Assembly: GCA_016793845.1 (NCBI GenBank)
Contig: JAEULI010000028.1
Span: forward strand, 1-48,832
Direction: 5' to 3'
DNA from: Sphingosinicella sp.
Lineage (GTDB): Bacteria > Pseudomonadota > Alphaproteobacteria > Sphingomonadales > Sphingomonadaceae
Length of the DNA stretch: 48,832 bases
Positions 497 to 18,164 of the stretch are shown here, one piece after another (within the stretch, counting starts at the first letter, position 1; each line of letters starts with the position of its first letter). The translations under genes and the position numbers were made by a program. A model generated the notes under the pieces. It was not told the DNA's origin. It did no database searches and worked only from the letters and a program-made list of their open reading frames with translations.

Positions 497-541
497 CCGC
501 TATTCATAGCATCGTACGGGGGGCGCGTGTGAAGGATCGGG

Positions 542-1495: not shown

Positions 1496-2856
1496 TCCGC
1501 GCGACGTTCACCATCGCCCGCCGCGATATCATGGCGACGATCCTGTCGCGCGGTTTCCTCATCTGGCTGGCGATGCCGGTGATCGGCCTCGCCTTCGCGG
1601 TGTTCGCCTCGATCGTCGGCGGTCCGCGGGCGACGGCAACGGCGTCGCAGGCGGTCGCAGTGATCGATCCGGCCGGCGATTTCACGCCGTGGATGCAGGC
1701 CGTCGCGGCGCGTGAGCGGACACGCACCGCCTACGAACGCCTGCGCGCCGGTCACAAGGATGCGGCCTTCGCGCGGCCCGCCGCGCTGCTCACCGATGCC
1801 GAACTCGATGCGCTGGCGAAGCGCGAGGATATCGGGGCGATTGCCGCGCTTGGCGCGCTGTCGTTCGCCGCGGTCAGCGCCGAGGCCGATCCGAAGGCTC
1901 AGGCGCACCGGCTGCTCTCGGAAAACACCCGCTTCGGCGCCGCGCTGGTCGTTACGCCAGGCACGCTTGCGCTTTTCACCGGAGACAAGGCACCCGCCGC
2001 CGATCGCATCCGAACCCTCGCGGGCCTTGCATGGACCAAGCGCGCGCTCGCGCAGGATGGTCTCGCCGCGCGCGTTGAAGCGGTTCGCGCGGCGCAGCCG
2101 GACGTTTCCGTCACCGTCCTCGATGAAGGCGCGCAGCCTGCCGGGCGCAAAGGCGGCGCGCCCGTCCTCGCCACGGGCGCCGCGACGGTGCTCTTCGCGC
2201 TGATTTCGCTGCTGGCGGGCGCGCTCCTCTCCAACATGGTCGAGGAAAAGTCGAACAAGATCATCGAGGTGCTGGTCGCCGCCGTGCCGGTTCCGGCGAT
2301 TTATGCTGGGAAGCTCATCGCCATGCTCGCCGTATCGCTGATCGGCGTCACCGTCTGGGGGCTGCTGTTCGGCGGCGGCTTCATGCTGGCGGCCGCGCAG
2401 CTTCCCGCCGGGCTCCTCCCCACGCCGCCGCGCGGCTGGCCGGAGCTGCTGGCGCTCGGCATCGCCTATTTCACCTGCGCCTATCTCATCTATGGCGCGA
2501 TCTATCTTGGCGTCGGCAGCCTTTGTTCCACGATCCGCGAGGTGCAGACGCTCTCGATGCCCGTCACCATCCTGCAGATGGTGATCCTGATCTCCACGCT
2601 CGGCGCGCTCGCGAACCCCGGTGGCCTCTGGTACCAGATCGTCTCGTGGTTCCCGCTTTCGGCGCCCTACATGATGCTGGGGCGCGGCGCCGCCGATACG
2701 GGGCTCGGCATCCATCTCGCGTCGATCGCGTGGCAGCTCGCCTTCGCGGCGCTGGTTATCGCGCTTGCCGCGCGGCTGTTCCGCTACGGCGTCCTCCGCT
2801 CAGGCCCGCCGCCGACGCTGCGTCAGCTGGCGGGCCTGAAACCGAGAGTGGCTTAA
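1492..2856 (+). CDS. ABC-2 family permease (NatB-like)
   Basis: This is the membrane partner of the preceding ATPase, 454 residues. The layout is that of ABC-2 permeases of the NatB/YhaP kind: one N-terminal membrane segment (about residues 18-40), a long extracytoplasmic domain (about 45-230), then a block of about five membrane segments. The motif NMVEEKSNKIIEVLVAAVP after the second membrane segment is typical of this family. ATG 1492 overlaps the upstream stop by 4 bases. The gene ends in TAA at 2854-2856, which overlaps the stop of the convergent SDR gene. The exported substrate is unknown. Confidence 0.86.
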   Translation: MIRATFTIARRDIMATILSRGFLIWLAMPVIGLAFAVFASIVGGPRATATASQAVAVIDPAGDFTPWMQAVAARERTRTAYERLRAGHKDAAFARPAALLTDAELDALAKREDIGAIAALGALSFAAVSAEADPKAQAHRLLSENTRFGAALVVTPGTLALFTGDKAPAADRIRTLAGLAWTKRALAQDGLAARVEAVRAAQPDVSVTVLDEGAQPAGRKGGAPVLATGAATVLFALISLLAGALLSNMVEEKSNKIIEVLVAAVPVPAIYAGKLIAMLAVSLIGVTVWGLLFGGGFMLAAAQLPAGLLPTPPRGWPELLALGIAYFTCAYLIYGAIYLGVGSLCSTIREVQTLSMPVTILQMVILISTLGALANPGGLWYQIVSWFPLSAPYMMLGRGAADTGLGIHLASIAWQLAFAALVIALAARLFRYGVLRSGPPPTLRQLAGLKPRVA

Positions 2857-3632
2857 CGGGGCGCCATGCGGATGCCGCCGTCGAGCCGCACATCCTCGCC
2901 GTTGAAATAGCCGATGGTGATCATCGCGAGCGCGAGCTTCGCATATTCTTCCGGCTCGCCGAGGCGCTTGGGGAACGGTACGGAGGCGGCGAGCGAGGCC
3001 TTCACATTGTCCGGCGCGGCCTGCAGCAGCGGCGTGTTGAAGATGCCGGGCAGGATGGTGTTGACGCGGATGCCCTCGCTCATCAGGTCACGCGCGATGG
3101 GGAGCGTCATGCCGACGACGCCGCCCTTGGAGGCGGAATAGGCGGCCTGGCCGATCTGGCCGTCTTCGGCGGCCACGGAAGCGGTGTTCACGATGGCGCC
3201 GCGCTCGCCGTCTTCCATCGGCTCCAGCGTCATCATGCCGGCGGCCGACTTCGCGATGCAGCGGAACGTGCCGATCAGGTTGATCTGGATGACCTTTTCG
3301 AAGGCGCCGAGTGGGTAGTGCTTGATCTCGCCGCTTGCCTTGTCGCGGCTCGCGGTCTTCACGGCGCTGCCGACACCGGCGCAGTTGACGAGGATGCGTT
3401 CCTGTCCGTGCGCGGCGCGCGCCTTCGCGAAGCCCGCGTCGACCGAATCGTCGCTCGTCACGTCGACGTTGCAGAAGATGCCGCCGATCTCGGCGGCGAG
3501 TGCCTCGCCCTTCTCAGCGCTCATGTCGAAGATGGCGACCTTCACGCCTTCCTTGGCCAGCGCGCGCGCCGTTGCGGCGCCGAGGCCGGAGGAGGCGCCC
3601 GTCACAACCGCTGCGGTTCCTGCAAGCTTCAT
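2853..3632 (-). CDS. SDR family oxidoreductase, 3-hydroxyacyl-CoA dehydrogenase type 2-like
   Basis: This is a 259-residue short-chain dehydrogenase/reductase. The cofactor motif TGASSGLG is near residue 11, NCAG near residue 80, and the catalytic Ser-Tyr-Lys is seen in NTASVAAEDGQIGQAAYSASK. Overall similarity (LPGIFNTPLL, FNGEDVRLDGGIRMAPR at the end) is to the HSD17B10/type 2 3-hydroxyacyl-CoA dehydrogenase group, which oxidises 3-hydroxyacyl-CoA with NAD in fatty acid or branched amino acid breakdown. The start at ATG 3632 is preceded by GGGAG; the open frame extends 25 codons further upstream without a better site. It lies upstream of no obvious operon partner, but an acyl-CoA ligase is encoded nearby on the same strand. 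Confidence 0.86.
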   Translation of the reverse strand: MKLAGTAAVVTGASSGLGAATARALAKEGVKVAIFDMSAEKGEALAAEIGGIFCNVDVTSDDSVDAGFAKARAAHGQERILVNCAGVGSAVKTASRDKASGEIKHYPLGAFEKVIQINLIGTFRCIAKSAAGMMTLEPMEDGERGAIVNTASVAAEDGQIGQAAYSASKGGVVGMTLPIARDLMSEGIRVNTILPGIFNTPLLQAAPDNVKASLAASVPFPKRLGEPEEYAKLALAMITIGYFNGEDVRLDGGIRMAPR

Positions 3633-3717
3633 TCCTGATCTCCCATGTTCAAAACTGTCTGTCGCGCGCCTTCCTAATCGAAGCGGCGGCAGGAGCAACC
3701 TCTTCACATGCGAAGGT

Positions 3718-4626
3718 TCAGTCGAGAGCGGGTGTGCTGGCCGGGCCCTTTCGGGCGAGCACGGCTTCGCGATAGGCGAGATAGATCGCGCTGCCGAGGA
3801 TGAGCGCGCCGCCGATCAGCGTGATGCCGTCCACGGTTTCGCCGAAGAGCACGAAACCGATGGCGATCATGATGCCGAAACGCACGAAATCATAAGGCAT
3901 CACGGCGGTCGCCTCGGCGATGGCGAAGGCGCGCACCGTCGCGATCTGGGCGATGAGCGTGCCCGCGCCGAGGCCGAGGATGTAAAGCCAGGCCACGCCC
4001 GACGGCGTTGTCCAGAACGCGAGCGCGACGAGGAAGGTCGGCAGCACAGGCAGTGCAAAGCTCCAGAACACGACCGACATCGGGCGGGCGATCCCCACCA
4101 GCCGTTTGACGGCGATGATCGAGAAGGCGACCGCGGCGGCCGCGACAACCGCGGAAAGGATGCCTGGCGTCAGCGGCTGTTCGCCGGGGCGCAGCACGAC
4201 GAGCACGCCGGCGAAGCCCGTCAGCAGTGCGCCGACCCGCCGCGCCCGCAGCTTTTCTCCCAGAAACAGCGCCGCACCAGCGGTCGCGAAGATCGGCGCG
4301 GCGAAGTTGATTGCCTGCACGGTCGCCATCGGTGCGTTCGCCACGGCATAGAAGACGGTGAACATGCCGATCACGCCGCTCGTGGATCGTGCGGCATGGC
4401 TTTTCCACTGGCGCGGCGATGCCATGGAAGGATCGCGCAGCACGAGCGGCAGGATCAGCAGCAGTCCCGCGGCATTTCGCCAGAAAACGAGCGCGAACGG
4501 GTGAATGGTCTCGCTTGCAAGCCGGATGAAGACCCACGCCGCGGAAAAGCCCACGGAGGCAACGAGGATCCATGCCGCCCCTGCGAGCGGTCGGCTTGCG
4601 GCGGTGCTACTTGTAGAGGGCGTCAA
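3718..4626 (-). CDS. EamA/DMT superfamily permease
   Basis: This is an inner-membrane protein of 302 residues with about ten hydrophobic segments in two EamA repeats, typical of drug/metabolite transporters. Recognisable parts are a first helix with GAAWILVASVGFSAAWVFIR, the end of the first repeat AALFLGEKLRARRVGALLTG and the matching end of the second repeat FGETVDGITLIGGALILGSA. No ATG lies near the N terminus. The only plausible start is TTG 4626, which overlaps the end of the acyl-CoA ligase gene by 20 bases, so it is likely translated by coupling. The substrate is unknown; relatives export amino acids, nucleotides or sugars. Confidence 0.85.
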   Translation of the reverse strand: MTPSTSSTAASRPLAGAAWILVASVGFSAAWVFIRLASETIHPFALVFWRNAAGLLLILPLVLRDPSMASPRQWKSHAARSTSGVIGMFTVFYAVANAPMATVQAINFAAPIFATAGAALFLGEKLRARRVGALLTGFAGVLVVLRPGEQPLTPGILSAVVAAAAVAFSIIAVKRLVGIARPMSVVFWSFALPVLPTFLVALAFWTTPSGVAWLYILGLGAGTLIAQIATVRAFAIAEATAVMPYDFVRFGIMIAIGFVLFGETVDGITLIGGALILGSAIYLAYREAVLARKGPASTPALD

Positions 4627-6409
4627 GTCGCTCCCCGTACACCTGCTTCAGCACGTGGCGCCGGATCTTCATCGAGGGCGTCATCTGTTCGTTTTCCACG
4701 GTGAACGCCTCGTCGGCAACGATCACGCGCCGCACCTTTTCGATCACCGAAAGCTGCGCGTTCACGCGGTCCACTGCCGCGGCGATGGCGCGGTGGAATT
4801 CGGGAATGCCCTTCAGCATCGCGAGGTCACTGGAATGGCCGTGTGCTGCGGCCCATTCGCCCGACCATTCAGGGTCCGGCACCACGAGGCCCACCAGATG
4901 CGGACGCTTGTCGCCATAAACCATGGCCTGCAGGATTTCGGGCTGCAGCGTCAGCATCCCCTCCACCCGCTGCGGCGCGACATTGTCGCCCTTGTCGTTG
5001 ACGATGATGTCCTTCTTGCGGTCGGTGATCACGATGTGGCCATCGGTGTCGATATGGCCGATGTCGCCGGTGTGCAGCCAGCCGTCCTTCAGCACGCGTT
5101 CGGTTTCCGCCGGGTTCTGCCAGTAGCCGTGCATCACGAGTTCGCCGCGCACGAGGATTTCGCCGTCCTCCGCGATGCGCACCTCTACGCCTTTCAGCGC
5201 GGGGCCGACGCTGTGCATCTTCAGCTTCGCGCGCGGCCGATTGCAGGAGATGACGGGCGCGGCCTCGGTCTGTCCATAGCCCTGCAGCAGCGTTACGCCG
5301 AGCGCGGCGAAGAAGATGCCGACCTCGGGGTTCAGCGGCGCGCCACCCGCCACCATCGCCTTCAGCCGCCCGCCAAGGCGGCCCTGCACTTTCTTGCGGA
5401 TCGTGCGGTCGAGCAGCAGGTCGAGCGGCTTGTCGGTCAGCGGCAGCCGCCCCTTCTCATAGCGCTTGCGGCCGAGCCGCAGCGCCTGCTCCAGCATCCA
5501 TACCGCCGCGCCGCCCTGCTTTTCGATCGCTTTCGACATGCGCTGGCGCAGCACCTCGAACAGGCGCGGCACCACCACCATGAGCGTCGGTCGCGTCTCC
5601 TCGATGTTGGCGGCGAGCTTCTCGAGACCTTCCGAATAATAGATCTCGGCGCCGAGCGCGATCGGCAGAAATTGCCCGCCGGTGTGCTCGTAGGCGTGGC
5701 TCAAAGGCAGGAACGACAGGAAGGTCTCGGTGCCCTTGGGGAAGTCGTTCCACAGCACGTCCTCGCAGCCCGCGAGGTTGCAGAGGATGGCGCCGTGGTG
5801 CTGGCAGACGCCGCGCGGCGCGCCGCCGGTGCCGCTCGTGTAGATGATGCACGCCATATCGCCGCGCTGCATGGTCGCGCTCGCGCGCACTGCCGCGACG
5901 TCGCCCTTATGCGCCGTCATCAGCTCCGCCCAGTCGATCAGCTCCGCGCCGCTCGCCTGCCCGATGCGTAGCTTCTCCATGCCGATCACCTGGCGGCAGT
6001 TGGTGGATCGGTAGACGGCAGGCAGCAGCACCTTCGCGAGCTTCGCATTGGAAACGATCGCCGCCTTCGCCCCGCTGTTCTCCAGGATATGGAGGTGGTC
6101 CCGCTCCGTATTGGTCGTATATGTCGGCACCGTGATCGCGCCCGCCGCCATGATGGCGAGGTCGGCGATGCACCACTCGGGCCGGTTCTCGCTCACCAGC
6201 ACCACGCGGTCGCCCTTGCCGATGCCGCGCGCGTTCAGCGCGGTCGTCAGCGTCGCCACCTGCTGCGCGGCCTCGGCCCACGTCGTCGTCCGCCACGCGC
6301 CGTCCATCTTGGCGTGCAGCATCGGGCGCTTGCCGCGCCGGCTCGCCTGATCGAAGAACATCTCGACGAGGTTGGGCCACGTCTCCGCTGTTTGCTCTGC
6401 GGTCTGCAT
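4607..6409 (-). CDS. AMP-dependent long-chain fatty acyl-CoA synthetase/ligase
   Basis: This 600-residue ANL-superfamily enzyme activates a carboxylic acid, probably a long-chain fatty acid, with ATP and CoA. The phosphate-binding motif YTSGTGGAPRGV lies at about residues 190-201. The adenine motif region reads GYGQTEAAPVIS and the hinge region WLHTGDIGHIDTDGHIVITD. The C-terminal domain carries the NDKGDNVAPQRVE segment. Length and layout match FadD15-type bacterial long-chain ligases. ATG 6409 is preceded by GGAGGAGACG, a strong ribosome binding site. It is followed, with a 20-base overlap, by the EamA gene. Exact chain-length preference cannot be told. Confidence 0.88.
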   Translation of the reverse strand: MQTAEQTAETWPNLVEMFFDQASRRGKRPMLHAKMDGAWRTTTWAEAAQQVATLTTALNARGIGKGDRVVLVSENRPEWCIADLAIMAAGAITVPTYTTNTERDHLHILENSGAKAAIVSNAKLAKVLLPAVYRSTNCRQVIGMEKLRIGQASGAELIDWAELMTAHKGDVAAVRASATMQRGDMACIIYTSGTGGAPRGVCQHHGAILCNLAGCEDVLWNDFPKGTETFLSFLPLSHAYEHTGGQFLPIALGAEIYYSEGLEKLAANIEETRPTLMVVVPRLFEVLRQRMSKAIEKQGGAAVWMLEQALRLGRKRYEKGRLPLTDKPLDLLLDRTIRKKVQGRLGGRLKAMVAGGAPLNPEVGIFFAALGVTLLQGYGQTEAAPVISCNRPRAKLKMHSVGPALKGVEVRIAEDGEILVRGELVMHGYWQNPAETERVLKDGWLHTGDIGHIDTDGHIVITDRKKDIIVNDKGDNVAPQRVEGMLTLQPEILQAMVYGDKRPHLVGLVVPDPEWSGEWAAAHGHSSDLAMLKGIPEFHRAIAAAVDRVNAQLSVIEKVRRVIVADEAFTVENEQMTPSMKIRRHVLKQVYGERLDALYK

Positions 6410-6433
6410 CGGTTCGTCTCCTCCCCGGATCGG

Positions 6434-8173
6434 CTAGAGCCCGGCGACTGCGCCCTCACTGCGCGGGTCGGCGCCGCCGATCCATCCCCTTGCTTTTCGT
6501 TGTACGCCATTCGCCTTCAGCGGCAGTGTGGCCGTGGTCGGCGCATGTCCCTTGGCGGTGAGCGCCGGGACCATCGCTTCCAACCGCGATCCGGCCTCGA
6601 TGGCAACGCGGTCGCCGGGCGCGTAGATCTGGGGGAGCGCGATCGCGTCCTCCACGTCCATCTCCCAGTCGAGCACGCCGACGAGCGCCTTCGCCACCTG
6701 CGCGATGATCGTCGATCCGCCCGCCGCGCCGATCGCAAGCACGGGCTTGCTGGATGCATCGTAAACGATGGTCGGCGCCATCGAGCTGCGCGGCCGCTTG
6801 CCCGGCTGCACGCGGTTCGGCGCCGTCTTGCCGTCCACCTCGGGCAGCATCGAGAAGTCGGTAAGCTCGTTGTTGAGGAAGAAGCCGTTGACGGTGAGGC
6901 CGCTGCCCCACGTCCCCTCGATGGTGGAGGTGTAGCTCGCCACGTCGCCCTGCCGGTCGGCCGCCGCGAAGTGCGAGGTCGACGGCACTTCTCCATCCGG
7001 CACGCGCGCCACGGCACCCGCGCCCGGCGGGGTTCCCGCCTCGACCTTCGCGGCGGCCTTCGCCGGGTCGATGAGCGCGCTGCGCCCCGAAAGATAGGCG
7101 GTGTCGACAAGGCCCGCTGTCGGCACGGAGACGAAATCGGGATCGCCGAGATAGGCCTCGCGGTCCGCGTAGGCGAGCCTCATGCTTTCCGCGATCAGGT
7201 GCCAGCTTTCCGGGCTGCCGGGGCCAAGCGCTTTCAGGTCGAAGCGTTCGAGCTGCTTCAGGATGGCGAGCACGGTGGTGCCGCCCGAAGACGGCGGCGC
7301 CATGCCGCAGACGCGCCACGTACGATAGGTGCCGCACACCGGATCGCGCCACACGGCCTTGTAGCCCGCAACGTCGCCCACCGTCATCGCCTGCGGATTC
7401 TTCGGCGCGCTCGCCACGGTGTTGACCAGCCGTGCCGCCTCGGCGCCGCGATAGAAGGCGTCGGGGCCTTCTTCGGCGAGCTTCTCGAGGAAACGGGCGA
7501 GCATGGGGTTGCGGATCGTCTCGCCGGCAAGGCGCGGCGTGTCGTCGGCGCGGAAGAAGGTCGCTTTCGCCCATTCGGTCATGCCCGCGTGCTGCGGGCG
7601 CGCCGCCAGCATCTCGTGCAGCCGCGGGCTCATCTCGAAGCCGTCCCGCGCGAGCCGGATCGCCGGTTCGAACAGCTTCGCCCAAGGCAGGCGGCCGAAG
7701 CGCGCATGCGCCATCGCCATCAGCCGGATGTTGCCGGGCACGCCGACGCTCTTGCCGCCGGGCACAGCCTCGCGGAACGGCATGGGTGTGCCGTCGGCAT
7801 TCAGGAACATCGTGGGTGTGGCCGCCTTGGGCGCCGTTTCGCGCCCGTCGATCGTGTAGAGCTTGTCGCTCTCGGCATCGTGGTAAAGCAGGAAGCCGCC
7901 GCCGCCGATCCCTGACGACTGGGGCTCCACCACTGTCAGCGTTAGCATCGTGGCAAGCGCGGCGTCCGCGGCGCTGCCGCCCGCCGCCAGCATCTCCTTG
8001 CCCGCATTCGCCGCGAGCGGGTGCGCCGCGGAAACGAGGCCGTTGTAAACAGGCGTGTCCTCGAACGCCGGCGGCGGCAAGGCCGCGGATGGCGCGGGCG
8101 TCTGTGTGGCACAGGCGGCGAGGCCGAGGAAAAGCGCGCCTGTCGCGGCGCGTGCGATCGTATGCTTCAACAC
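6434..8173 (-). CDS. ggt: Gamma-glutamyltransferase, predicted lipoprotein precursor
   Basis: This enzyme hydrolyses or transfers the gamma-glutamyl group of glutathione and related peptides in the periplasm; the precursor cleaves itself into two chains. From GTG 8173 it has 579 residues and starts with a hydrophobic leader ending in the lipobox-like LGLAAC, so it may be anchored as a lipoprotein. The N-nucleophile threonine is T399 in PSTSHFAA, preceding the small subunit. The open frame continues upstream to a TTG at 8209, which would place charged residues before the signal peptide, so I prefer the GTG or the TTG right after it. It lies 24 bases upstream of the acyl-CoA ligase gene on the same strand. 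Confidence 0.9.
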   Translation of the reverse strand: MLKHTIARAATGALFLGLAACATQTPAPSAALPPPAFEDTPVYNGLVSAAHPLAANAGKEMLAAGGSAADAALATMLTLTVVEPQSSGIGGGGFLLYHDAESDKLYTIDGRETAPKAATPTMFLNADGTPMPFREAVPGGKSVGVPGNIRLMAMAHARFGRLPWAKLFEPAIRLARDGFEMSPRLHEMLAARPQHAGMTEWAKATFFRADDTPRLAGETIRNPMLARFLEKLAEEGPDAFYRGAEAARLVNTVASAPKNPQAMTVGDVAGYKAVWRDPVCGTYRTWRVCGMAPPSSGGTTVLAILKQLERFDLKALGPGSPESWHLIAESMRLAYADREAYLGDPDFVSVPTAGLVDTAYLSGRSALIDPAKAAAKVEAGTPPGAGAVARVPDGEVPSTSHFAAADRQGDVASYTSTIEGTWGSGLTVNGFFLNNELTDFSMLPEVDGKTAPNRVQPGKRPRSSMAPTIVYDASSKPVLAIGAAGGSTIIAQVAKALVGVLDWEMDVEDAIALPQIYAPGDRVAIEAGSRLEAMVPALTAKGHAPTTATLPLKANGVQRKARGWIGGADPRSEGAVAGL

Positions 8174-8226
8174 CCTGACGTCATAGGACGCTGGGGCGCG
8201 TGGGGGCAAGGCGTCAGCCGCGCCTT

Positions 8227-9279
8227 TTAGGCGTCGACGCCCACGGCCTGCGAGACGCGTTCGAAGCCGTCTGCCCGCAGATGAGCGGCGATCCCCGCCT
8301 TGATCGCGCTGACGAGGCTGGGGCCCTGATAGACGAGCGCGGTGTAGAGCTGCACGAGGCTCGCGCCCGCGCGAATCTTCGCATAGGCGTCGTCGGCGCT
8401 CGCGATCCCGCCGACACCGATCAGCGGCACAGCGCCCACGGTCGCCTGCCGGAACGCGCGCAGCACCTCGGTCGAGCGCGCCATCAGCGGCCGCCCCGAA
8501 AGGCCGCCGGTTTCGGAGACGTGGCGGTTCTTCAGCATGTCCGGCCGCGCGATGGTCGTATTCGAAACGACAAGACCATCGACGCCCGCCGCCACCACCG
8601 CGACCGCGATGTCGCCGATATCGGCGTCGGTAACGTCGGGGGCCACTTTCAGGAAGATCGGCGTCTTGCGATGGCCGCGCGCATCCATCACGCGGCCGAG
8701 CAGTTCGGCGAGCTCATCCTTCGATTGCAACGTGCGCAGGCCGGGCGTGTTGGGCGAGCTGATGTTGACCGTGATGTAGTCGACGAACGGCGCTGCGTGC
8801 TCCACCGAAAGCGCATAGTCGGCGATCCGGTCGCGCGAGTCCTTGTTCGCGCCGACGTTGAGCCCGGTCACACCGCGCGGCCCCCGGTGCCAGGCACGTT
8901 CCTTGAACTTGTCGAGCGCCTGTTCGAGGCCGTTGTTGTTGAAGCCGAGCCGGTTGATGACGGCCTGGTCTTCGGTGAGGCGGAACATGCGCGGCTTCGG
9001 ATTGCCCGGTTGCGGTAGCGGCGTGACCGTCCCCGCCTCCACGAAGCCGAAGCCGAGCCGCAGCAGCGGATTCAGCACCTCGGCGTTCTTGTCGAAGCCC
9101 GCGGCGATGCCCACCGGGTTAGAAAAGCGCAGCCCCGCAACCGTCGTCCGCAGGCTGGGCGGGTCGTCCGCGATGCGCGACGGCGGCATTGCGCCCAGCA
9201 ACCGCAACGTCAGGCGGTGCGCGCGTTCGGCATCGAGCTTGAAGAGGACGGGGCGGACCAGCCCGTAAGGGATCTGCAT
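8227..9279 (-). CDS. pyrD: Quinone-dependent dihydroorotate dehydrogenase (class 2)
   Basis: PyrD oxidises dihydroorotate to orotate and passes electrons to quinones at the inner membrane, in pyrimidine synthesis. The 350-residue protein has the class 2 N-terminal helix region (GLVRPVLFKLDAERAHRLTL) that binds the membrane, then a TIM barrel with GIAAGFDKNAEVLN, NISSPNTPGLR bearing the catalytic serine region, and VGVGGIASADDAYAKIRAGA for phosphate binding of FMN. ATG 9279 is chosen over an upstream in-frame TTG at 9288. A promoter-like pair lies so close that the transcript would have almost no leader. The gene ends 53 bases before the ggt start and may be co-transcribed with it. Confidence 0.93.
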   Translation of the reverse strand: MQIPYGLVRPVLFKLDAERAHRLTLRLLGAMPPSRIADDPPSLRTTVAGLRFSNPVGIAAGFDKNAEVLNPLLRLGFGFVEAGTVTPLPQPGNPKPRMFRLTEDQAVINRLGFNNNGLEQALDKFKERAWHRGPRGVTGLNVGANKDSRDRIADYALSVEHAAPFVDYITVNISSPNTPGLRTLQSKDELAELLGRVMDARGHRKTPIFLKVAPDVTDADIGDIAVAVVAAGVDGLVVSNTTIARPDMLKNRHVSETGGLSGRPLMARSTEVLRAFRQATVGAVPLIGVGGIASADDAYAKIRAGASLVQLYTALVYQGPSLVSAIKAGIAAHLRADGFERVSQAVGVDA

Positions 9280-9289
9280 ATGATGCAAG

Positions 9290-9318
9290 CCTTAGCGCAG
9301 GCAACGCCCGGTGGTCAA
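9290..9318 (-). promoter_or_regulatory. Candidate pyrD promoter
   Basis: On the reverse strand TTGACC (9318-9313) and CTAAGG (9295-9290) are separated by 17 bases. A start site about 6-7 bases further on would fall near 9283, only a few bases before ATG 9279, giving an almost leaderless mRNA. The -35 element is good and the -10 element is weak, so this is a suggestion only. Confidence 0.3.
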
Positions 9319-9470
9319 AAGGAAGCGCGCACGGGATGGCGCAAATGCGCGACTCGGCGCTCATCGCAAACCGCCCTCTTCGAGGAACTGCAGCCTCTGG
9401 CGATGAACGGGCATAAACCTCTGGATCGAAACACAAAGCCGGCTTGATGTCGGATTCGTACAATCCACGG

Positions 9471-9601
9471 TCAGGACCGCCCGCTAGGGTCCGCCTCGCG
9501 ACTCAGGGGACGTCCTTTCTTCCGGTAACCAGCAGGCCGGAACGAACACGACCCTCACTTTCCGGCCCGGGCGTTTCAATGCGTCCGGGCCTTCTTTTTT
9601 T
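9471..9601 (+). ncRNA. Candidate small RNA 1 (about 130 nt) ending in intrinsic terminator
   Basis: TACAAT at 9459-9464 is a close -10 match, though no good -35 is seen. A start near 9471 would give an RNA that opens with a GGACC/GGTCC hairpin (9474-9478 with 9488-9492). A perfect TTCCGG/CCGGAA stem of 6 bp around 9520-9542 follows, and it ends in the terminator at 9564-9601. It does not fit tRNA, 4.5S RNA or tmRNA signatures that I know. The terminator is certain as a structure; the start and the existence of a stable RNA are inferred. Confidence 0.5.
9564..9601 (+). terminator. Intrinsic terminator of candidate sRNA 1
   Basis: GGCCCGG at 9564-9570 pairs with CCGGGCC at 9585-9591. The stem extends inward by GCG against CGT with one G-T pair, giving about 10 bp. 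It is followed by TTC and a run of seven T at 9595-9601. The T run is only on the right side, so it acts on rightward transcripts. Confidence 0.85.
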
Positions 9602-9638
9602 CGCTCTCACGACGTTTTTGCGAACGGCTCACAGCATT

Positions 9639-9667
9639 TTGACGGGGCTTTGACGGGGCCGCCCTAA
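9639..9667 (+). promoter_or_regulatory. Candidate promoter of sRNA 2, with repeated TTGACGGGGC
   Basis: TTGACG at 9639-9644 lies 17 bases before CCCTAA at 9662-9667. A second copy, TTGACG at 9650-9655, follows the first as a direct repeat (TTGACGGGGC twice). The -35 match is good and the -10 match poor. It sits right after the first terminator and right before the structured stretch that ends at the second terminator. Confidence 0.35.
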
Positions 9668-9673
9668 ACGCAG

Positions 9674-9768
9674 CCCTGCGACCCAAGGGTTCGTCTCCTA
9701 TGCCCTCAAGGCATTCACGACCCCGACTGACAGGGGGGTCCGTTCCAACCCGGACCCCCCGCTTTTTT
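9674..9768 (+). ncRNA. Candidate small RNA 2 (about 95 nt) with exposed CTCCT
   Basis: The proposed RNA begins with a short hairpin (CCCT 9674-9677 with AGGG 9686-9689). It then has an unpaired stretch containing TCTCCT (9694-9699), next a perfect ATGCC/GGCAT hairpin with loop CTCAA (9700-9714), and ends in a 10-bp terminator (9733-9768). The CUCCU lies exactly between the two hairpins, so it could pair with Shine-Dalgarno sequences of target mRNAs, as known for several alphaproteobacterial trans-acting sRNAs. The hairpins are seen directly; expression and function are inference. Confidence 0.5.
9733..9768 (+). terminator. Intrinsic terminator of candidate sRNA 2
   Basis: GGGGGGTCCG at 9733-9742 pairs perfectly with CGGACCCCCC at 9751-9760 over an 8-base loop, followed by GC and six T at 9763-9768. 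It is oriented rightward. Confidence 0.9.
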
Positions 9769-9867
9769 GTCAGCAGCGAACTGCGACTCGCCGGGCGCCG
9801 CAAGCTTTGGTATCTGAGCCGAAACTTTCGGCTCAGGCAGGGTGCACGAAAGGCCGGTCGCAGTCTC

Positions 9868-10716
9868 ATGTTCTCGATGCGTTACCACTCGCCAGCGCCG
9901 CCGCTTCGGCGGCTGCTTTCGAGCTATTACGTCGTCGAGATCGGCCCGGGACGCATCACCGACGTGATGCGGGCAGAGCTTCCCAATGTGCGCTTCGTGA
10001 TTCGCGGCCATTCCGATCTCACCTGGCCCGACGGCAGCGTGCGGCGCAGCTATGGCGCCAGCCTGTTCGGCCCGCGCTGCCTGCCGCTCGGCATGGTGCT
10101 CGAAGGCCCGGCGCTGGTGTTCGGCGCCGGGATCATGTCCGATGGCTGGCTGCGCTTTTTCGGCGTCGATTCCGACGAGATGGCCGATGCGATGCTGCCC
10201 TTGGAGGACGTTGCGGGAAGCGCGGCGTGTTCGGCGCTGTGCCGGATGCAGAACGGCGTCACCGATCATGATCTCGTCGCGGCGGCGGACGCCTTTTTCC
10301 TGTCGATGGCACGGCGCCATGCCGCGCGACAGGACATCGGCTTCGGAATGCTGGTGGAAGACTGGCTGGTGCGCGGCAGCCTTGGCGGTGTCGATGCGCT
10401 GATCGGGGTGGCGGACCGCTCGGCGCGGCAGGTGGAACGCCTGTGCCGCCGCACCTATGGCGCGCCGCCCAAGCTGCTGATGCGCAAATATCGCGCACTG
10501 CGTGCGGCGGTCCAGATCAGCGTCGATCCCGATGCGCGCTGGTTCGATGTTGCGGGCGAGGACTTCTACGATCAGTCGCACTTCATCCGCGAGTTCCGCA
10601 CGTTCGTGGGCATGACACCCACGCAGTTCGCGGCGAACGGGGCTGCGGTGATGAGTCACAGCATTCGCCTGCGCCGCCAGCTTCCGACGCTTCCCAGGCT
10701 CTCGCTCGTCAGCTAG
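9868..10716 (+). CDS. AraC family transcriptional regulator
   Basis: This is a 282-residue DNA-binding regulator. The N-terminal part (about residues 1-170) resembles the AraC group with a DUF6597-like ligand domain. The C-terminal domain carries two helix-turn-helix units, seen in DRSARQVERLCRRTYGAPPK and in FYDQSHFIREFRTFVGMTPT, the usual AraC signature. ATG 9868 is the first start after the second terminator; ATG 9877 is an alternative. The frame stays open back to 9700 but would cross the terminator. No ribosome binding site is obvious. Neighbours are the sRNA region and the suf operon, and its targets are unknown. Confidence 0.82.
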   Translation: MFSMRYHSPAPPLRRLLSSYYVVEIGPGRITDVMRAELPNVRFVIRGHSDLTWPDGSVRRSYGASLFGPRCLPLGMVLEGPALVFGAGIMSDGWLRFFGVDSDEMADAMLPLEDVAGSAACSALCRMQNGVTDHDLVAAADAFFLSMARRHAARQDIGFGMLVEDWLVRGSLGGVDALIGVADRSARQVERLCRRTYGAPPKLLMRKYRALRAAVQISVDPDARWFDVAGEDFYDQSHFIREFRTFVGMTPTQFAANGAAVMSHSIRLRRQLPTLPRLSLVS

Positions 10717-10730
10717 AGGCACCTCGCCGC

Positions 10731-10774
10731 TTGACTCGGGCGCGGCGCGCCCCACATAAGCCGGACCGAATTCG
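10731..10774 (+). promoter_or_regulatory. Candidate suf operon promoter and operator
   Basis: TTGACT (10731-10736) and CATAAG (10755-10760) are 18 bases apart. Just downstream lies the palindrome CGAATTCG (10767-10774) within GACCGAATTCGTC, which could be the site of the Rrf2 regulator encoded next. Only the pattern is seen; binding is not shown. Confidence 0.35.
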
Positions 10775-10797
10775 TCTGATTTAGCGCCGGAGCGTCC

Positions 10798-11235
10798 GTG
10801 ATCCGCCTGACCAACCTTGCCGACTATGCGGTCGTCGTGATGACGGCGGCGGCGCGCGCGCCCGATCGTCGCTTTTCCGCCGCCGAGCTTGCCGCCGAAA
10901 CCGGCGTGCCCGCGCCCACGGCGGCAAAGCTCACCGGCATTCTCGCGCGCGCAGGGCTGCTTGATTCGGCGCGCGGCGTCACCGGCGGTGTCCAGCTTGG
11001 GCGCGGCGCAGCAGAGATCAGCATTGCGGACATCGTCGAGGCGGTGGACGGCCCCATCGCCATCGCCCAGTGCCTGCACGACAAATCGTCGGACTGCGCG
11101 CTCGAATCGAGCTGCGCGGTACGCCCGCACTGGTCGCTTATCAACGTGCGCGTGCGCGAGGCGCTCAGCGACGTGAGCCTCGCCGCCATCGTTGCCGCTG
11201 AACGCGCGAACCAGCGCATCGGGGAGCCCGCCTGA
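10798..11235 (+). CDS. Rrf2 family SUF system Fe-S regulator
   Basis: This 145-residue winged-helix protein probably senses Fe-S cluster status and controls the suf operon it heads. It begins [15 protein letters not shown], the classic Rrf2 start. It has a recognition helix around [19 protein letters not shown] and three cysteines at C92, C100 and C106, the likely cluster ligands. Spacing is Cys-x7-Cys-x5-Cys, wider in the first interval than in IscR (Cys-x5-Cys-x5-Cys), as expected of the separate SUF regulator branch. Translation starts at GTG 10798, and its stop overlaps the sufB start as TGATG. Confidence 0.87.
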
Positions 11236-12700
11236 TGGCCGCGAACGAACAGGCGCTCGCGCTCGCCAAGGAGCAGTCGAAGTACAAGTGGGGTTTCTCG
11301 TCCGACATCGAATCCGATTTCGCGCCGAAGGGTCTCGACGAGGATACTGTCCGCTTCATCTCGGCGAAGAAGGCTGAGCCGGAATGGATGCTGGAATGGC
11401 GCCTGAAGGCGTTCCGGCTCTGGCAGGGCATGGAAAGTCCGGACTGGGCGAAGCTCTCGATCCCGCCGATCGACTATCAGGACGCCTATTATTACGCCGC
11501 GCCGCGCAAGAAGCCGACGCTGAAGTCGCTGGACGAACTCGATCCCGAGATCCTGCTCACCTACCAGAAGCTCGGCATCCCCATCGAGGAGCAGAAAGTG
11601 CTCGCCGGCGTCGAGGGCGCTCGCAAGGTCGCCGTCGACGCGGTATTCGATTCGGTCTCCGTCGCCACCACCTTCCGCGAGGAGCTGAAGCGCGCCGGCG
11701 TCATCTTCCTGTCGATCAGCGAGGCGATCCGCGAATATCCGGACCTCGTGAAGAAGTATCTCGGCGCGGTCGTCCCCGTGCGCGACAACTTCTTCGCCTG
11801 CCTCAACAGCGCGGTCTTCTCGGACGGCACCTTCGTCTACGTGCCCGAAGGCGTCCGCTGCCCGATGGAGCTGTCGACCTATTTCCGCATCAACGCGGAG
11901 AACACCGGCCAGTTCGAGCGCACGCTGATCATCGCCGACAAGGGGTCGTACGTCTCCTACCTCGAAGGCTGCACCGCGCCGCAGCGCGACGAGAACCAGC
12001 TTCACGCCGCTGTCGTCGAGCTGATCGCGCTCGAAGATGCCGAGATCAAATATTCCACCGTCCAGAACTGGTATCCGGGCGACGAGAACGGCAAGGGCGG
12101 CATCTACAACTTCGTCACCAAGCGCGCGCATTGCCGGGGCGACCGCTCCAAGGTGTCGTGGACGCAGGTCGAAACCGGCTCGGCGATCACCTGGAAATAT
12201 CCGTCCTGCGTGCTCTCGGGAAAAGACAGCGTGGGCGAGTTCTATTCGGTCGCGCTCACCAACAACATGCAGCAGGCCGACACCGGCACGAAGATGATCC
12301 ATCTGGGCGCCGGCTCGCGCTCCACGATCATCTCGAAGGGCATCTCGGCGGGCCGCTCGAACAACACCTACCGCGGCCTCGTCCGCGTCGGCCCCACGGC
12401 CGAAGGCGTGCGCAACTTCACACAGTGCGACAGTCTTCTGCTCGGCAGCGAATGCGGCGCCCACACCGTGCCCTACATCGAGGTGAAGAACCCCTCGGCG
12501 CAGATCGAGCACGAAGCGACGACCAGCAAGATCAGCGACGACCAGCTCTTCTACGCCCAGTCGCGTGGCCTCGACCGCGAGGCGGCGGTGGCGCTCATCG
12601 TCAACGGTTTCGCCAAGGAGGTGCTCCAGCAGCTCCCGATGGAATTCGCCGTGGAGGCGCAGAAGCTCCTCGGCATCAGTCTGGAAGGAAGCGTCGGCTG

Positions 12701-12701
<1 letters not shown>
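11235..12701 (+). CDS. sufB: Fe-S cluster assembly scaffold SufB
   Basis: SufB is the scaffold subunit of the SufBCD complex, on which Fe-S clusters are built from sulfide and iron in the cytosol. The 488-residue length matches the family. The segments [36 protein letters not shown] and the C-terminal [20 protein letters not shown] are typical, with the cysteine in TQCDS in the expected sulfur-receiving region. It is the second gene of the operon, with 1-base overlaps on both sides. Translation coupling suggests matched levels with SufC and SufD. Confidence 0.95.
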
Positions 12702-13443
<742 letters not shown>

Positions 13444-13447
<4 letters not shown>

Positions 13448-14196
13448 ACGCCCTGCCGATCCCCACCCGCCGCGACGAGGCATGGCGCTACAGCGACCTT
13501 GAGGCGCTGGGCGAGGTCTGGCCGTCGGGCGTCGTGTCGGAACGCATCGATGTGCCGGCCGGCGAAACCCGCGCGCTCACGCTCGTGGCGGACGCCGCGC
13601 AGCCCGTGGCGGTGCGCGACTGGACCGTCACCATCGCCGACGGTGCCCGCCTCGATCTCCACATCCTCAATCTCGGTGGCCGCTATGGCCGCGTCGCGCT
13701 CGACGTCACGCTTGGCGAAGGATCGCATTTCGAACTCGGCGCCGCGCAGGTCGCCGGCGGCAAGACCACGCTCGAAATCGTCACCCATGTCCGCCACGCC
13801 GCCCCCGGCGCCACCAGCCGCCAGACCGTGCGCACCGTGCTCGCGCAGCAGGCGACCGGCACCTATCTCGGCAAGGTTGCCGTCGATCGCGGTGCGCAGA
13901 AGACGGATGCCGCGCAGTCGGTGAAGGCGATGCTGCTCGATCGCACCGCGACGGCGAACGCCAAACCCGAGCTCGAAATCTTCGCCGACGACGTGAAGTG
14001 CGCGCACGGCGCCACCGTCGGCGAGCTGGACGCGACGCAGTATTTCTACCTGACGAGCCGGGGCCTGCCCCCTGCAGAGGCGAAGCGGCTCCTCCTGCAC
14101 GCCTTCCTCGCCGATGCCTTCGCGGGCATGGACGATGCCGGCGCGCGCGAAACGCTGGAAGCGGCGGCGCTCGCCGCGCTGGAGCGGCTCGCATGA
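13444..14196 (+). CDS. sufD: Short SufD family Fe-S assembly protein
   Basis: SufD pairs with SufB and SufC in the scaffold complex. At 250 residues it is much shorter than E. coli SufD (423). The N terminus starts almost at once with the family segment PTRRDEAWRYSDLEALGEVW, so the usual leading helical part is missing and the beta-helix core is reduced. The C-terminal signature FADDVKCAHGATVGELDATQ is intact, including the histidine of CAHGAT that matches the conserved SufD His. GTG 13444 overlaps sufC by 4 bases, so no room exists for a longer start. I believe such short forms are common in sphingomonads; this was not checked. Confidence 0.88.
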
Positions 14197-15401
14197 ACGC
14201 GCTGACGCCGATCACCGTCTCGCGCCGCGCCGATTTTCCGGGCGTTGGAGCGTGGGCCTATCTCGATTCCGCCGCGACCGCGCAGAAGCCGCAGGCCGTG
14301 ATCGACGCGATCGCAGCCGCTTACGGCCCCGAGTACGCCACCGTGCATCGCGGCGTCTACGCGCGCTCGGCGACGATGACCGAGCGTTTCGAGGCGGCGC
14401 GGAGTACAGCCGCGCGCTTCATCAACGCCGCCAGCCCGAACGAGATCGTCTTCGTGCGCGGCGCCACCGAAGCGATCAACCTCGTCGCGCAGACGTGGGG
14501 GCTGGCGAACCTCAAGGCCGGCGACCGCATCCTGCTGACGCGGCTGGAGCATCATTCGAACATCGTGCCGTGGCAGCTCCTGCGGGATCGCACCGGCATC
14601 GAGATCGACGTCGCGCCGCTCACCGCCGACCACCGCATCGATGAAGATGCGCTGGAGGCGATGCTCACCCCAGCTCACAAGCTCGTCGCTGTCGCCCACG
14701 TCTCGAACGTGCTCGGGTCGGTCGCGGACATCGCCCGCATCGCTCGCGCCGCGCACGCCGTGGGCGCGAAGCTGCTTGTCGATGGCTGTCAGGCGGTGCC
14801 GCGCATGGGCGTGGACGTGCAGGCGCTCGGCGCCGATTTCTACGCTTTCTCCGCCCACAAGCTCTACGGTCCCACCGGCATCGGGGTGCTGTGGGCACGC
14901 GGCGACATCCTCTCGGCGATGCCGCCGTGGCAGGGCGGCGGCTCGATGATCGAGACGGTGACGTTCGAGAAGACCACCTATGCGCCGGCGCCGACGCGCT
15001 TCGAGGCAGGCACGCCGCACATCGTCGGCGCCGTCGGCCTCGCCGCCGCCATGGATTATGTCTCGGCGATCGGCCTCGATACCATCGACGCGCACGAGCG
15101 GCACCTCGCGGGTCTCGCGCGCGCCGAACTGCGCAAGGTCAATTCGCTGCGCCTGTTCGGACCCGAGGATTCGAGCGGTATTGTCAGCTTCGCCATGGAG
15201 GGGGTGCATCCCCACGACATCGGTACCATATTGGATGAGGAAGGCGTCGCCATCCGCGCCGGGCACCACTGCGCCCAGCCCCTGATGGAAACATTGGGCG
15301 TGCCGGCCACGGCGCGCGCCAGCTTCGGCGTCTACAGCGATGAAAGCGATGTCGAGCGGCTGCTTCGCGGCATCGCGCGTGTGAAGAGGATTTTCGGATG
15401 A
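14193..15401 (+). CDS. sufS: Cysteine desulfurase SufS
   Basis: SufS is a pyridoxal-phosphate enzyme that takes sulfur from cysteine and delivers it as persulfide to the scaffold. The 402-residue protein shows the PLP lysine K223 in FSAHKLYGPTGIG and the catalytic cysteine C360 in RAGHHCAQPLMETLG, the group II (SufS) arrangement. ATG 14193 overlaps the sufD stop by 4 bases. No SufE or SufU sulfur acceptor is encoded in this operon, so the acceptor must be elsewhere or sulfur passes directly. Confidence 0.94.
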   Translation: MNALTPITVSRRADFPGVGAWAYLDSAATAQKPQAVIDAIAAAYGPEYATVHRGVYARSATMTERFEAARSTAARFINAASPNEIVFVRGATEAINLVAQTWGLANLKAGDRILLTRLEHHSNIVPWQLLRDRTGIEIDVAPLTADHRIDEDALEAMLTPAHKLVAVAHVSNVLGSVADIARIARAAHAVGAKLLVDGCQAVPRMGVDVQALGADFYAFSAHKLYGPTGIGVLWARGDILSAMPPWQGGGSMIETVTFEKTTYAPAPTRFEAGTPHIVGAVGLAAAMDYVSAIGLDTIDAHERHLAGLARAELRKVNSLRLFGPEDSSGIVSFAMEGVHPHDIGTILDEEGVAIRAGHHCAQPLMETLGVPATARASFGVYSDESDVERLLRGIARVKRIFG

Positions 15402-15853
15402 GCGAAGAGTCTCGGCCCTATACCGTGGAAAGCGTCGACGCGCCGCCGCCGGCGCCGGAGCGGCCCGTGCTGGAGCAGGCGCGGCGCAAGGCCGATTATC
15501 TCGAAGGCTTTCTCAGCCAGAAGCCTGCCGCGCCCGATCCCGGCAGCCCGGGCGGCGAGGTCTATGATCAGGTCATCCAGGCGCTGCGCGAGATTTACGA
15601 TCCCGAGATTCCGGTGAACATCTACGATCTCGGGCTCATCTACGGCGTCGATATCGCCGATGATCACGTCGTCGTCACCATGACGCTGACGACGCCGCAC
15701 TGCCCGGTCGCCGAATCGATGCCCGCCGAGGTGGAAATCCGCGTCGGCAGCGTGCCCGGCGTCGGCTCGGCGGAGGTCAACCTCGTCTGGGATCCGCCGT
15801 GGGACCCGCAGAAGATGTCCGACGAGGCGAAGCTGGAGCTTGGAATGCTATGA
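15398..15853 (+). CDS. sufT: SUF system DUF59/MIP18 protein SufT
   Basis: This 151-residue protein has a proline-rich N-terminal extension (about residues 10-50). A DUF59 (MIP18-like) domain follows, with the signature EIYDPEIPVNIYDLGLIYGV and the cysteine in TLTTPHCPVAES. SufT-type proteins help Fe-S cluster maturation or delivery to client proteins. The stretch ending NLVWDPPWDPQKMSDEAKLEL is the usual C terminus. It overlaps sufS by 4 bases and sufA by 4 bases, so it belongs to the operon. Confidence in the family is high; its exact step is not settled. Confidence 0.9.
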   Translation: MSEESRPYTVESVDAPPPAPERPVLEQARRKADYLEGFLSQKPAAPDPGSPGGEVYDQVIQALREIYDPEIPVNIYDLGLIYGVDIADDHVVVTMTLTTPHCPVAESMPAEVEIRVGSVPGVGSAEVNLVWDPPWDPQKMSDEAKLELGML

Positions 15854-16203
15854 GCACCATTGTTCGAGAACGCCCGGCGCCCATCGCGCTCACCGAGAAC
15901 GCCAACGCGCGCATCGCCGCGATGATGGCGCGCGCTCCCGAAGGCACGCTCGGCGTGCGCCTGTCGACGCCCCGGCGCGGCTGCTCGGGCCTTGCCTACA
16001 GCATCGACTATGTCGCCGAGGCGAAGCCGGGCGACGAGCGTATCGAGACGCCCGGCGGCACGCTCTTCGTCGACGGCGGTTCGCTGCTCTACCTGATCGG
16101 CAGCCGCATGGACTGGAAGGAAGACGATTTCGCCGCCGGCTTCGTCTTCGAAAATCCTAACGCCAAGGGCAGCTGCGGCTGCGGCGAGAGCTTCACGGTC
16201 TGA
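15850..16203 (+). CDS. sufA: A-type Fe-S carrier SufA/HesB family
   Basis: A-type carriers accept clusters from the scaffold and pass them to apoproteins. The 117-residue protein has the three ligand cysteines: C45 in RRGCSGLAY, and C109 and C111 in the C-terminal GSCGCGESF. It is the last gene of the overlapping suf set. ATG 15850 overlaps the sufT stop as ATGA, and the frame upstream is only a shadow. It could equally be called IscA or ErpA by sequence alone; position supports SufA. Confidence 0.9.
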   Translation: MSTIVRERPAPIALTENANARIAAMMARAPEGTLGVRLSTPRRGCSGLAYSIDYVAEAKPGDERIETPGGTLFVDGGSLLYLIGSRMDWKEDDFAAGFVFENPNAKGSCGCGESFTV

Positions 16204-16226
16204 CGCTTTGCGGTTACGAAAGCGGG

Positions 16227-17453
16227 ATGAAAACCCTTCCTCTCGCCCTTGCCGTCGCCCTTCTCGCCACAACCGCTCAGGCCCAATCGCTACCCTCTGC
16301 GGTGCCCGCGCCCATTATCGACGGCCACAACGACCTGCCCTGGGCGCTCCGCCAGCTGAACGGCAGCCGTACAAGCGATTTCGATTTCCGCAACCTGCCG
16401 GAGCGGCTGCGCGGCAAGATCGTCACCGATTTCACGATGCTGAAAGCGGGCGGCGTCGGCGGCCAGTTCTGGTCGGTCTACGTCCCCGCCGACACCGAAG
16501 GCCCCGAGGCCGTTCGCCTGACGATCGAGCAGATCGACATCATGCAGCGCCTCATCGATGCGAACCCGTCGATGCTCGCCAAGGCCGCCACCGTCGCCGA
16601 TTTCGAACGCGCGATGAAAGCTGGAAAAATTGCATCGGTGTTCGGCGTGGAGGGCGGCCATTCCATTGGTAATTCGCTTGGTGTACTGCGCCAGTTCCAT
16701 GCCCTCGGTGCGCGCTACATGACGCTCACCCACAGCAAGACGACGGCATGGGCGGACAGCGCCACCGATGCGCCCAGACACAACGGCCTCGCACCCTTCG
16801 GCAAGGAGGTGGTGCGCGAGATGAACCGCCTCGGGATGCTCGTCGATCTCAGCCACGTGACACCGAAGGTGATGCACGACGCCCTCGATGTAAGCGTGGC
16901 GCCGGTGATCTTCAGCCATTCGTCGGCAAAAGCCGTGCAGAACCGCCCGCGCAACGTGCCGGATGACGTGCTCGTCCGCCTCAAGGACAATGGCGGCGTC
17001 ATCATGGTGTTCTTCGCCCAGGATGCGGTGACGGAAACCGTGGCGGCATGGCACCGTGAGCTGGCGGCGCAGAAGGCTCGGCTCGGCTATGATCACCCGG
17101 ATCGGCCGGACCTTGTCGAGAAAGGTGTCGCGGACTGGCAGGCGGCAAATCCGCAACCTCATGCGAACGTTGCGCAGGTGGCCGAGCATATCGATCATAT
17201 CCGCAAGGTGGCGGGGATCGACGTCATCGGCATCGGTTCTGATTTCGATGGGCTGCCGAGCTATCCGGACGGGCTCGGCACGGTTGCTGATTACCCTGCG
17301 CTGTTCGCGGAGCTTGCGAAGCGCGGCTATTCGAAGGCCGATCTCGCGAAGATCGCCAGCGGCAACATCCTGCGCGCGATGCGGCAGGCGGAAAAAGTCT
17401 CGGCCCGGCTCAAGGCTGAGCGCGGGCCGAGCGAGGTCAGGTTCGCGGGCTAA
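16227..17453 (+). CDS. Secreted M19 family membrane dipeptidase
   Basis: This is a renal-dipeptidase-type zinc peptidase that hydrolyses dipeptides, some with D-amino acids, in the periplasm. It has 408 residues with a clear signal peptide (MKTLPLALAVALLATTAQAQ, cut likely after AQA). Metal-site segments are visible in order: DGHNDLPWAL, FGVEGGHSIGNS, LVDLSHVTPK, IFSHSSAKAV and IGSDFDGLPS. It starts 23 bases after sufA and may be transcribed with it by read-through, although its role is unrelated. A second M19 enzyme lies at 30344-31501. Confidence 0.9.
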   Translation: MKTLPLALAVALLATTAQAQSLPSAVPAPIIDGHNDLPWALRQLNGSRTSDFDFRNLPERLRGKIVTDFTMLKAGGVGGQFWSVYVPADTEGPEAVRLTIEQIDIMQRLIDANPSMLAKAATVADFERAMKAGKIASVFGVEGGHSIGNSLGVLRQFHALGARYMTLTHSKTTAWADSATDAPRHNGLAPFGKEVVREMNRLGMLVDLSHVTPKVMHDALDVSVAPVIFSHSSAKAVQNRPRNVPDDVLVRLKDNGGVIMVFFAQDAVTETVAAWHRELAAQKARLGYDHPDRPDLVEKGVADWQAANPQPHANVAQVAEHIDHIRKVAGIDVIGIGSDFDGLPSYPDGLGTVADYPALFAELAKRGYSKADLAKIASGNILRAMRQAEKVSARLKAERGPSEVRFAG

Positions 17454-17456
17454 ACA

Positions 17457-18071: not shown

Positions 18072-18117
18072 GGGTCTGGTCCTTGTTCTCGGTTGCAGAG
18101 CCATAGCTAATGTGCGA

Positions 18118-18153: not shown

Positions 18154-18164
18154 AGTTGCAGGAA

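Follow-up and report, generated by a model that had tools for sequence, protein, structure and literature searches.

Genomic context of the tandem RNA units

In the window, i.e., the whole stretch of 48,832 nucleotides that was analysed, the gap between pyrD and the codirectional araC-type regulator gene holds two plus-strand units, RNA1 and RNA2, each made up of a stem-loop and a terminator (Table 1). The araC-like gene starts about 100 bases 3' of the RNA2 terminator. A generic scan of positions 1-20000 returned 12 terminator-like sites, with 13 expected, and the two longest stems among them were the terminators of RNA1 and RNA2. A generic scan of the same 20000 positions for sigma-70-like promoters returned none, and the promoter-like pair upstream of RNA2 was not picked up either. 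Between RNA2 and araC, the sequence CTGCGACTCGC with a GACTC of the GANTC type lies at 9784-9794; in the genus alignment a single genome departs from it, by one base, and it is possibly part of an araC promoter.

Table 1. Genes and predicted RNA features around the two tandem units (positions in the window)
Feature	Position	Strand	Basis
pyrD (dihydroorotate dehydrogenase), divergent neighbour	8227..9288	-	Pfam DHO_dh, E 1.4e-86
RNA1 family promoter element TGTCG-N6-TACAA, with GATTC (GANTC type) at 9453-9457	9448..9463	+	sequence
RNA1 putative -10-like GCTAGG	9483..9488	+	T and A commonest at -12 and -11 in 73 members
RNA1, predicted first tandem small RNA: GCGACTCAGGGG start, hairpin, terminator	9498..9598	+	conservation; fold z -4.4; model R2
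RNA1 terminator stem-loop, 11 pairs, T run behind	9564..9591	+	terminator scan
RNA2 promoter-like pair, TTGACG at 9639-9644 and CCTAAA at 9663-9668	9639..9668	+	sequence; conservation in 6 genomes
RNA2, predicted second tandem small RNA	9678..9768	+	first-ranked in window by model R2; fold z -3.6
RNA2 invariant 27-base 5' block	9678..9704	+	100% identical in 6 genomes
CUCCU in RNA2 internal loop	9695..9699	+	P(unpaired) 0.91-0.95
RNA2 terminator stem-loop, perfect 10 pairs, then GC and six T	9733..9760	+	sequence; terminator scan
araC-type regulator gene, codirectional neighbour	9868..10716	+	Pfam HTH_18
Rrf2/IscR-type gene ahead of the sufB frame	10798..11235	+	Pfam Rrf2

Anatomy and fold of RNA2

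An earlier sequence-only reading, which covers RNA2 but neither RNA1 nor the family described below, had proposed an RNA of about 95 nt from 9674 with a -35/-10-like pair, two hairpins, a perfect 10-bp terminator with six T, and TCTCCT in the single-stranded gap between the hairpins. The promoter-like pair, with a spacing of 18 bases, and the terminator are present as described; another TTGACG lies at 9650-9655. A small RNA of about 91-95 nt is well borne out by comparison with all six genus genomes and with a covarying family. The start has to be moved: RNA2 begins with GCGACCCAAGGG, one base shorter than the family start GCGACCC(G)AAGGG, and from the family GCGACCC we infer a 5' end at about 9678 and not at 9674.

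The 95-nt stretch 9674-9768 folds at -38 kcal/mol against a mean of -27.7 kcal/mol (z -3.3) and beats all 200 dinucleotide shuffles. The part before the terminator taken by itself reaches z -1.4, with 23 of 200 shuffles equally good; thus, the low energy of the stretch is largely due to the terminator. In the minimum-energy fold, one irregular hairpin (GGG/CCC, UCGU/ACGA, AUGCC/GGCAU) is followed by a single-stranded stretch and the terminator, so of the two proposed hairpins the terminator hairpin remains and the separate one in front of TCTCCT does not. Of the TCTCCT at 9694-9699, CUCCU is predicted to be exposed in an internal loop of the irregular hairpin, and the first U of UCUCCU to be paired: in five distinct orthologues the unpaired probability is 0.91-0.95 for the pentamer and 0.05-0.06 for the whole hexamer. 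The shuffle control for exposure scored the hexamer, which is itself seldom fully unpaired (0.05), and the pentamer is outside its reach. As a word, TCTCCT is ordinary, with 18 occurrences in the window and 14.4 expected.

Conservation inside the genus

The whole RNA1-RNA2 stretch is found at the same place in six of six genus genomes, the other five being 89-94% identical to the window. Mean pairwise identity among the six is 95.1% for RNA1, 90.8% for RNA2 and 48.6% for the spacer between them; the araC start region has 89.9%, i.e., RNA2 overall is kept about equally well as that coding stretch. Changes in the RNA2 orthologues ahead of the terminator fall in the apical loop and on single bases past the small hairpin, and CTCCT and the hairpin are kept throughout the genus, as the sequence-only reading had expected of related genomes; in the wider family this holds for the structure and not for CTCCT (see below). 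A plain DNA search of 59 relatives found the RNA2 region nowhere beyond the six genus genomes, and in the nearest genera by PyrD (L231-L237) another gene lies upstream of pyrD, with no RNA seen there.

A covarying family of pyrD-linked RNAs

A first covariance model, R1, was made from RNA2 alone (five sequences) and matched 29 of 199 genomes at E<=0.1, three of them from the window's own genus. Among the 12 matches listed, L064 and L068 were RNA-like and the rest were short or gene ends with terminators. Both loci lie outside the genus and begin with GCGACCCGAAGGGCTC, which led to a search for this 16-base pattern. Of 119 genomes that belong to the taxonomic family, 51 contain the exact 16-mer and none contains the reversed pattern. 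The 16-mer occurs at 57 places, 30 of which were returned as loci, 28 with an RNA-like unit behind the 16-mer; L170 and L174 were dropped as family members because no terminator follows it.

The second model, R2, is an alignment of 27 members, none from the window's genus. In this alignment, 8 of 18 pairs changed on both sides, compared with 4.1 in shuffles, and 94.6% of cells were paired, compared with 37-53% when the partners were slid. In a set of 73 members (74 loci chosen from those fetched, minus L244, which was below the threshold), 15 of 18 pairs changed on both sides and 95.3% were paired, in an alignment that was fitted to the model and leans towards it. The hairpin and terminator helices of the family thus covary. 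Members share the start GCGACCCGAAGGG, one irregular hairpin and a terminator, with GCGACCC in 72 of 73; RNA1 starts with GCGACTC. The omitted L244 (genome G022) carries GCGACCCGAGGGGACCGUC and the same promoter element as the family and is RNA1-like by eye.

In the 48.8-kb window, run with filters off, the best R2 match is RNA2 (23.7 bits, E 1.7e-4). Next comes the RNA1 region, which scores 15.8 bits (E 0.017) in a partial register that is shifted. RNA2 is recovered in six of six genus loci with 21.8-28.6 bits, RNA1 in two of six, in L012 from the first base (21.0 bits) and in L008 partly. In the window's own whole genome RNA2 again comes first, but with E 0.012, the next match (0.018) being a chance-like gene end with a terminator; in the run over 199 genomes with stricter filters, this genome (G000) has no match at E<=0.01 and the sole place listed for G001 is another locus. 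The R2 score of RNA2 alone is borderline genome-wide, and therefore the case for its membership rests on score, place and anatomy together.

The place is well conserved. A divergent pyrD lies within 1.5 kb in 23 of 28 members, as in the window, and in the other five it is about 2 kb off and an araC-like gene follows the RNA. At 80 PyrD loci of named genomes, R2 gave five matches at E<=0.001: in Qipengyuania algicida, two Novosphingobium and a Sphingomonadales MAG the RNA is 125-172 bases from the PyrD match, and in Parasphingopyxis marina about 2 kb from it; the PyrD loci of Pacificimonas flava and Sandaracinobacteroides hominis gave no match at this threshold. At E<=0.01, R2 has matches in 133 of 199 genomes of the taxonomic family, which represent 70 of 96 genera; among these 133 genomes, 27 are weak, with a best E above 1e-4, and some of the weak matches are probably due to chance. 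An order-wide sample of 147 genomes gave 41 matches at E<=0.001, 37 of them in the same taxonomic family; the four outside it are marginal (6e-4 to 1e-3), and the number of outsiders among the 147 is not shown.

In G155, which belongs to another genus, L344 holds a tandem pair of members (1630-1708 and 1809-1882) in the order pyrD, RNA, RNA, araC-like, which is the order of the window. The TGTCG/TCCAA element (see below) stands at the first RNA of this pair and is absent at the second. Tandem doubling with a changed predicted second promoter is thus seen in two genera, be it shared or repeated.

Rfam 15 returned nothing at gathering score in the window, which agrees with the earlier view of an unnamed RNA, nor in 13 member loci, and for six further member loci it gave one weak match (E 0.33, a Listeria family). 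A search of the open-licence literature gave no paper with GCGACCCGAAGGG or with a sphingomonad pyrD-linked intergenic sRNA, and pyrD is absent from the main text of a Zymomonas sRNA paper (PMC6970203). What is new here is the family and the tandem pair.

Promoter elements and GANTC sites

The element TG[TA]CG-N6-T[AC]CAA is located at -51 to -49 in 67 of 73 members, the other six lacking the searched form; to our knowledge, it is not a recognised one. RNA1 carries it as TGTCGGATTCGTACAA at -50, and RNA2 has no TGTCG-N6-T(A/C)CAA. The strict form TGTCGNNTTNNTACAA has a single occurrence in the window's own genome. The GCTAGG of RNA1 sits one base further upstream than the T and A that are commonest in the family. 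In the region of 9454-9468, a short inverted repeat GGATT-N5-AATCC (GGATTCGTACAATCC) lies partly over the RNA1 promoter element; it does not vary within the genus alignment and is a possible regulator site.

GANTC occurs within the 62 upstream bases of 48 of 73 members; 500 base shuffles, which ignore the kinship of the loci, averaged 14.7 such members and never exceeded 27. The site falls inside the TGTCG element in 13 of 73 members and between -33 and -7 in 39 of 73, for which the shuffles, again ignoring kinship, averaged 7.7 and never exceeded 18. The region upstream of RNA2 (9616-9677) has no GANTC. In Caulobacter, GcrA is brought to promoters by GAnTC sites that CcrM has methylated (PMC3667746), and by this analogy the transcription of the family may be under cell-cycle control.

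Interpretation of the tandem pair

Taken together, 9678-9768 is probably a small-RNA gene that stands alone. It would be the second copy in a tandem pair, from a family that resides near pyrD in the taxonomic family of the window. Comparison of the predicted RNAs shows a common 5' end, a common hairpin and terminator, a conserved place and copies that appear to stand alone elsewhere. We hypothesize that RNA1 and RNA2 each start at GCGAC from their own promoter, end at their own terminator and pair with mRNAs in trans, as terminator-ended small RNAs usually do; by this analogy, base pairing in trans is the likeliest mechanism, and the invariant unpaired 5' end and the single strand ahead of the terminator would probably serve for pairing or for binding a chaperone. 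RNA1 keeps the family promoter element, and RNA2 has a different, TTGAC-like putative promoter and a CUCCU predicted to be exposed; RNA2 may thus answer another signal and reach other targets than RNA1.

A special case of this explanation, which adds a candidate target to the first reading, is that RNA2 acts as an anti-Shine-Dalgarno riboregulator, in which CUCCU and its neighbours (GUCUCCUAUGCC, 9693-9704) block translation of mRNAs such as that for a Flp pilin. The predicted exposure of CUCCU and its invariance in the genus speak for it, and so does an orthologous Flp pilin gene (Pfam Flp_Fap) that in four of six genus genomes has GGUAUAGGAGAC over its ribosome site. With 9693-9704 this site can form 12 pairs out of 12, one of them G-U, a number that was not reached at any of 290 background gene starts taken from 400 kb of G003. 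However, the target search at ribosome sites foreseen by the sequence-only reading brought no overall enrichment: 8-nt complements before ATG (TAGGAGAC-N2-11-ATG) gave 14 matches in the six genus genomes, and the reversed control gave 13. With shuffled seeds, 12 pairs occur 0.11 times per 290 starts, so that chance would supply about one such site in each genome. In terms of energy, 3 of 290 starts equal the pilin site, and 98.5% of shuffled seeds find an equal one. The four genomes with the site are at least 99% complete; no such site was found in G000 or G005, both incomplete genomes. Moreover, CUCCU occurs in 6 of 73 family members and never at the place it has in RNA2, being located before the terminator in four and in a helix in two, so masking of ribosome sites by CUCCU would be particular to the RNA2 copy. 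The pilin leader is therefore a weak lead, and we regard the anti-Shine-Dalgarno role of RNA2 as a tentative and rather unlikely one. In G003, L311 (G003:C1:797000-816999) holds two adjacent Flp-type pilin genes at about 9777-10320, only one of them with the AUAGGAGAC ribosome site to which RNA2 could pair.

A leader had to be considered since a codirectional gene is often close behind the terminator: at many other loci the same strand has the start of an araC-like gene or iscR at a distance of roughly 75-110 bases, similar to the araC-like start in the window. The stretch would then be an attenuated 5' leader of the araC-like (or iscR-suf) operon, with transcription stopping at the terminator or conditionally reading through it. 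The gene downstream varies, araC-like or iscR, while the RNA stays constant, and copies away from pyrD are placed differently. Around further R2 matches, 18 stretches were fetched with 20 matches in all and at least one in each; L343, L344 and L346 lie at pyrD and L348 is doubtful (overlapping matches on both strands), which leaves 14. In 11 of these 14 (L332, L334-L337, L339-L342, L345, L347), a convergent gene with a Pfam domain follows the RNA, and the codirectional frames tested in five of these stretches have no Pfam domain; L331, L333 and L338 make up the rest of the 14. The 11 copies with convergent genes behind them indicate a stand-alone family rather than a leader, which makes the leader improbable, while some read-through into araC is possible in the window. 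At L344, tblastn places the araC-like gene on the other strand from the longest frame.

Some of the copies away from pyrD have neighbours of note. In L335, L336, L340, L341 and L347, an extra RNA copy lies about 50 bases from a convergent gene with a YAcAr (SLOG family) domain, which makes a second recurrent site, in five genomes, perhaps on mobile DNA. The extra copies in L342 and L345 lie beside a recombinase/resolvase gene and a phage-lysozyme gene, respectively, which suggests that mobile elements carry the small RNA.

Quite unlikely is a more far-reaching scenario, in which transcription of a core small RNA of the taxonomic family is tied to CcrM methylation at GANTC and thereby to the cell cycle. 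In this genus, one copy of the duplicated gene would have escaped from this control, gained an anti-Shine-Dalgarno loop and come to repress a Flp pilin. If true, tandem duplication would have let a small RNA change its input as well as its output.

It is highly unlikely that the stretch is no RNA gene at all and is instead a chance stem, a plain terminator or a piece of a coding frame. In the window, the frame that begins with ATG 9700 runs on without a stop into the araC gene, and the count of terminator-like sites in 1-20000 is at chance level; but this frame stops within its first 75 codons in four of six genus sequences and shifts with the loop length, and the 27 invariant 5' bases fit a family model that was built independently.

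Sphingomonads attract study for their breakdown of pollutants, and few named small RNAs of theirs surfaced in the open-licence literature. The family is present in over half of the genomes sampled from the taxonomic family. With its conserved place, its start and its unusual common promoter element, it could readily be entered into RNA annotation and lends itself clearly to deletion and to the mapping of targets. The two tandem copies, with their unlike promoters, offer a natural comparison of small-RNA divergence after duplication.

Relation to known small RNAs

Several suhB/MmgR/alphaR8 RNAs (RF00519) often share a genome, and some of them are adjacent (PMC12559287). That RNA2 is a diverged member of this family, as its weak score (28.7 bits, E 4.7e-4 for 421 bases) and its like outline of hairpin, single strand and terminator might suggest, is scarcely credible and was rejected by the Rfam test: RNA2 and the RNA1 region (17.7 bits) stay below the gathering score of 41, the single strand between hairpin and terminator reads UCACGACCCCGACUGACA in place of CCUCCC, the same genome holds two better candidates with AUCCUCCCC (L043 and L045), another family accounts for the locus with its place and start, and 13 loci of that family have no match at gathering score. 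The two candidates, L043 (G000:C29:15811-15876) and L045 (G000:C120:760-839), are alphaR8/suhB-like with AUCCUCCCCAAGGAUUU, score 29.3 and 24.9 bits against the cut-off of 41 and are apparently a diverged, genus-specific form. Of 119 genomes in the taxonomic family, 94 have RF00519 matches above the cut-off, frequently several in one genome, and some of these matches are tandem about 200 bases apart, e.g., G064:C10:100449-100530 and 100673-100752. CrfA of Caulobacter is a sponge for alphaR8 RNAs (PMC12559287); a sponge role was found unsupported here, with duplex energies averaging -19.2 kcal/mol compared with -20.9 kcal/mol for shuffled RNAs in 15 genomes.

As a candidate trans-acting Hfq-dependent small RNA, RNA2 has a predicted terminator of its own in the sequence. 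The CUCCU in a loop recalls C-rich or anti-Shine-Dalgarno RNAs, i.e., SmelC671, in which variable hairpins flank a conserved, single-stranded CUCCCUGU, and RS0680a, whose two stem loops each carry an aSD motif (PMC3927594). In RNA2, however, CUCCU lies in an internal loop, is present in one copy and in one genus, and is no feature of the family, homology having been compared via Rfam. The GANTC sites upstream of most members resemble the GcrA/CcrM-controlled promoters of Caulobacter, a link predicted from sequence, whereas RNA2 itself lacks them. Like SuhB of Sphingopyxis granuli TFA and SisA-D of Caulobacter, both of the suhB/MmgR/alphaR8 type, RNA2 is short and terminator-ended, with hairpin, single strand and terminator in this order, but it falls under the Rfam cut-off, lacks the CCUCCC stretch there and has its own start, promoter and place next to pyrD.
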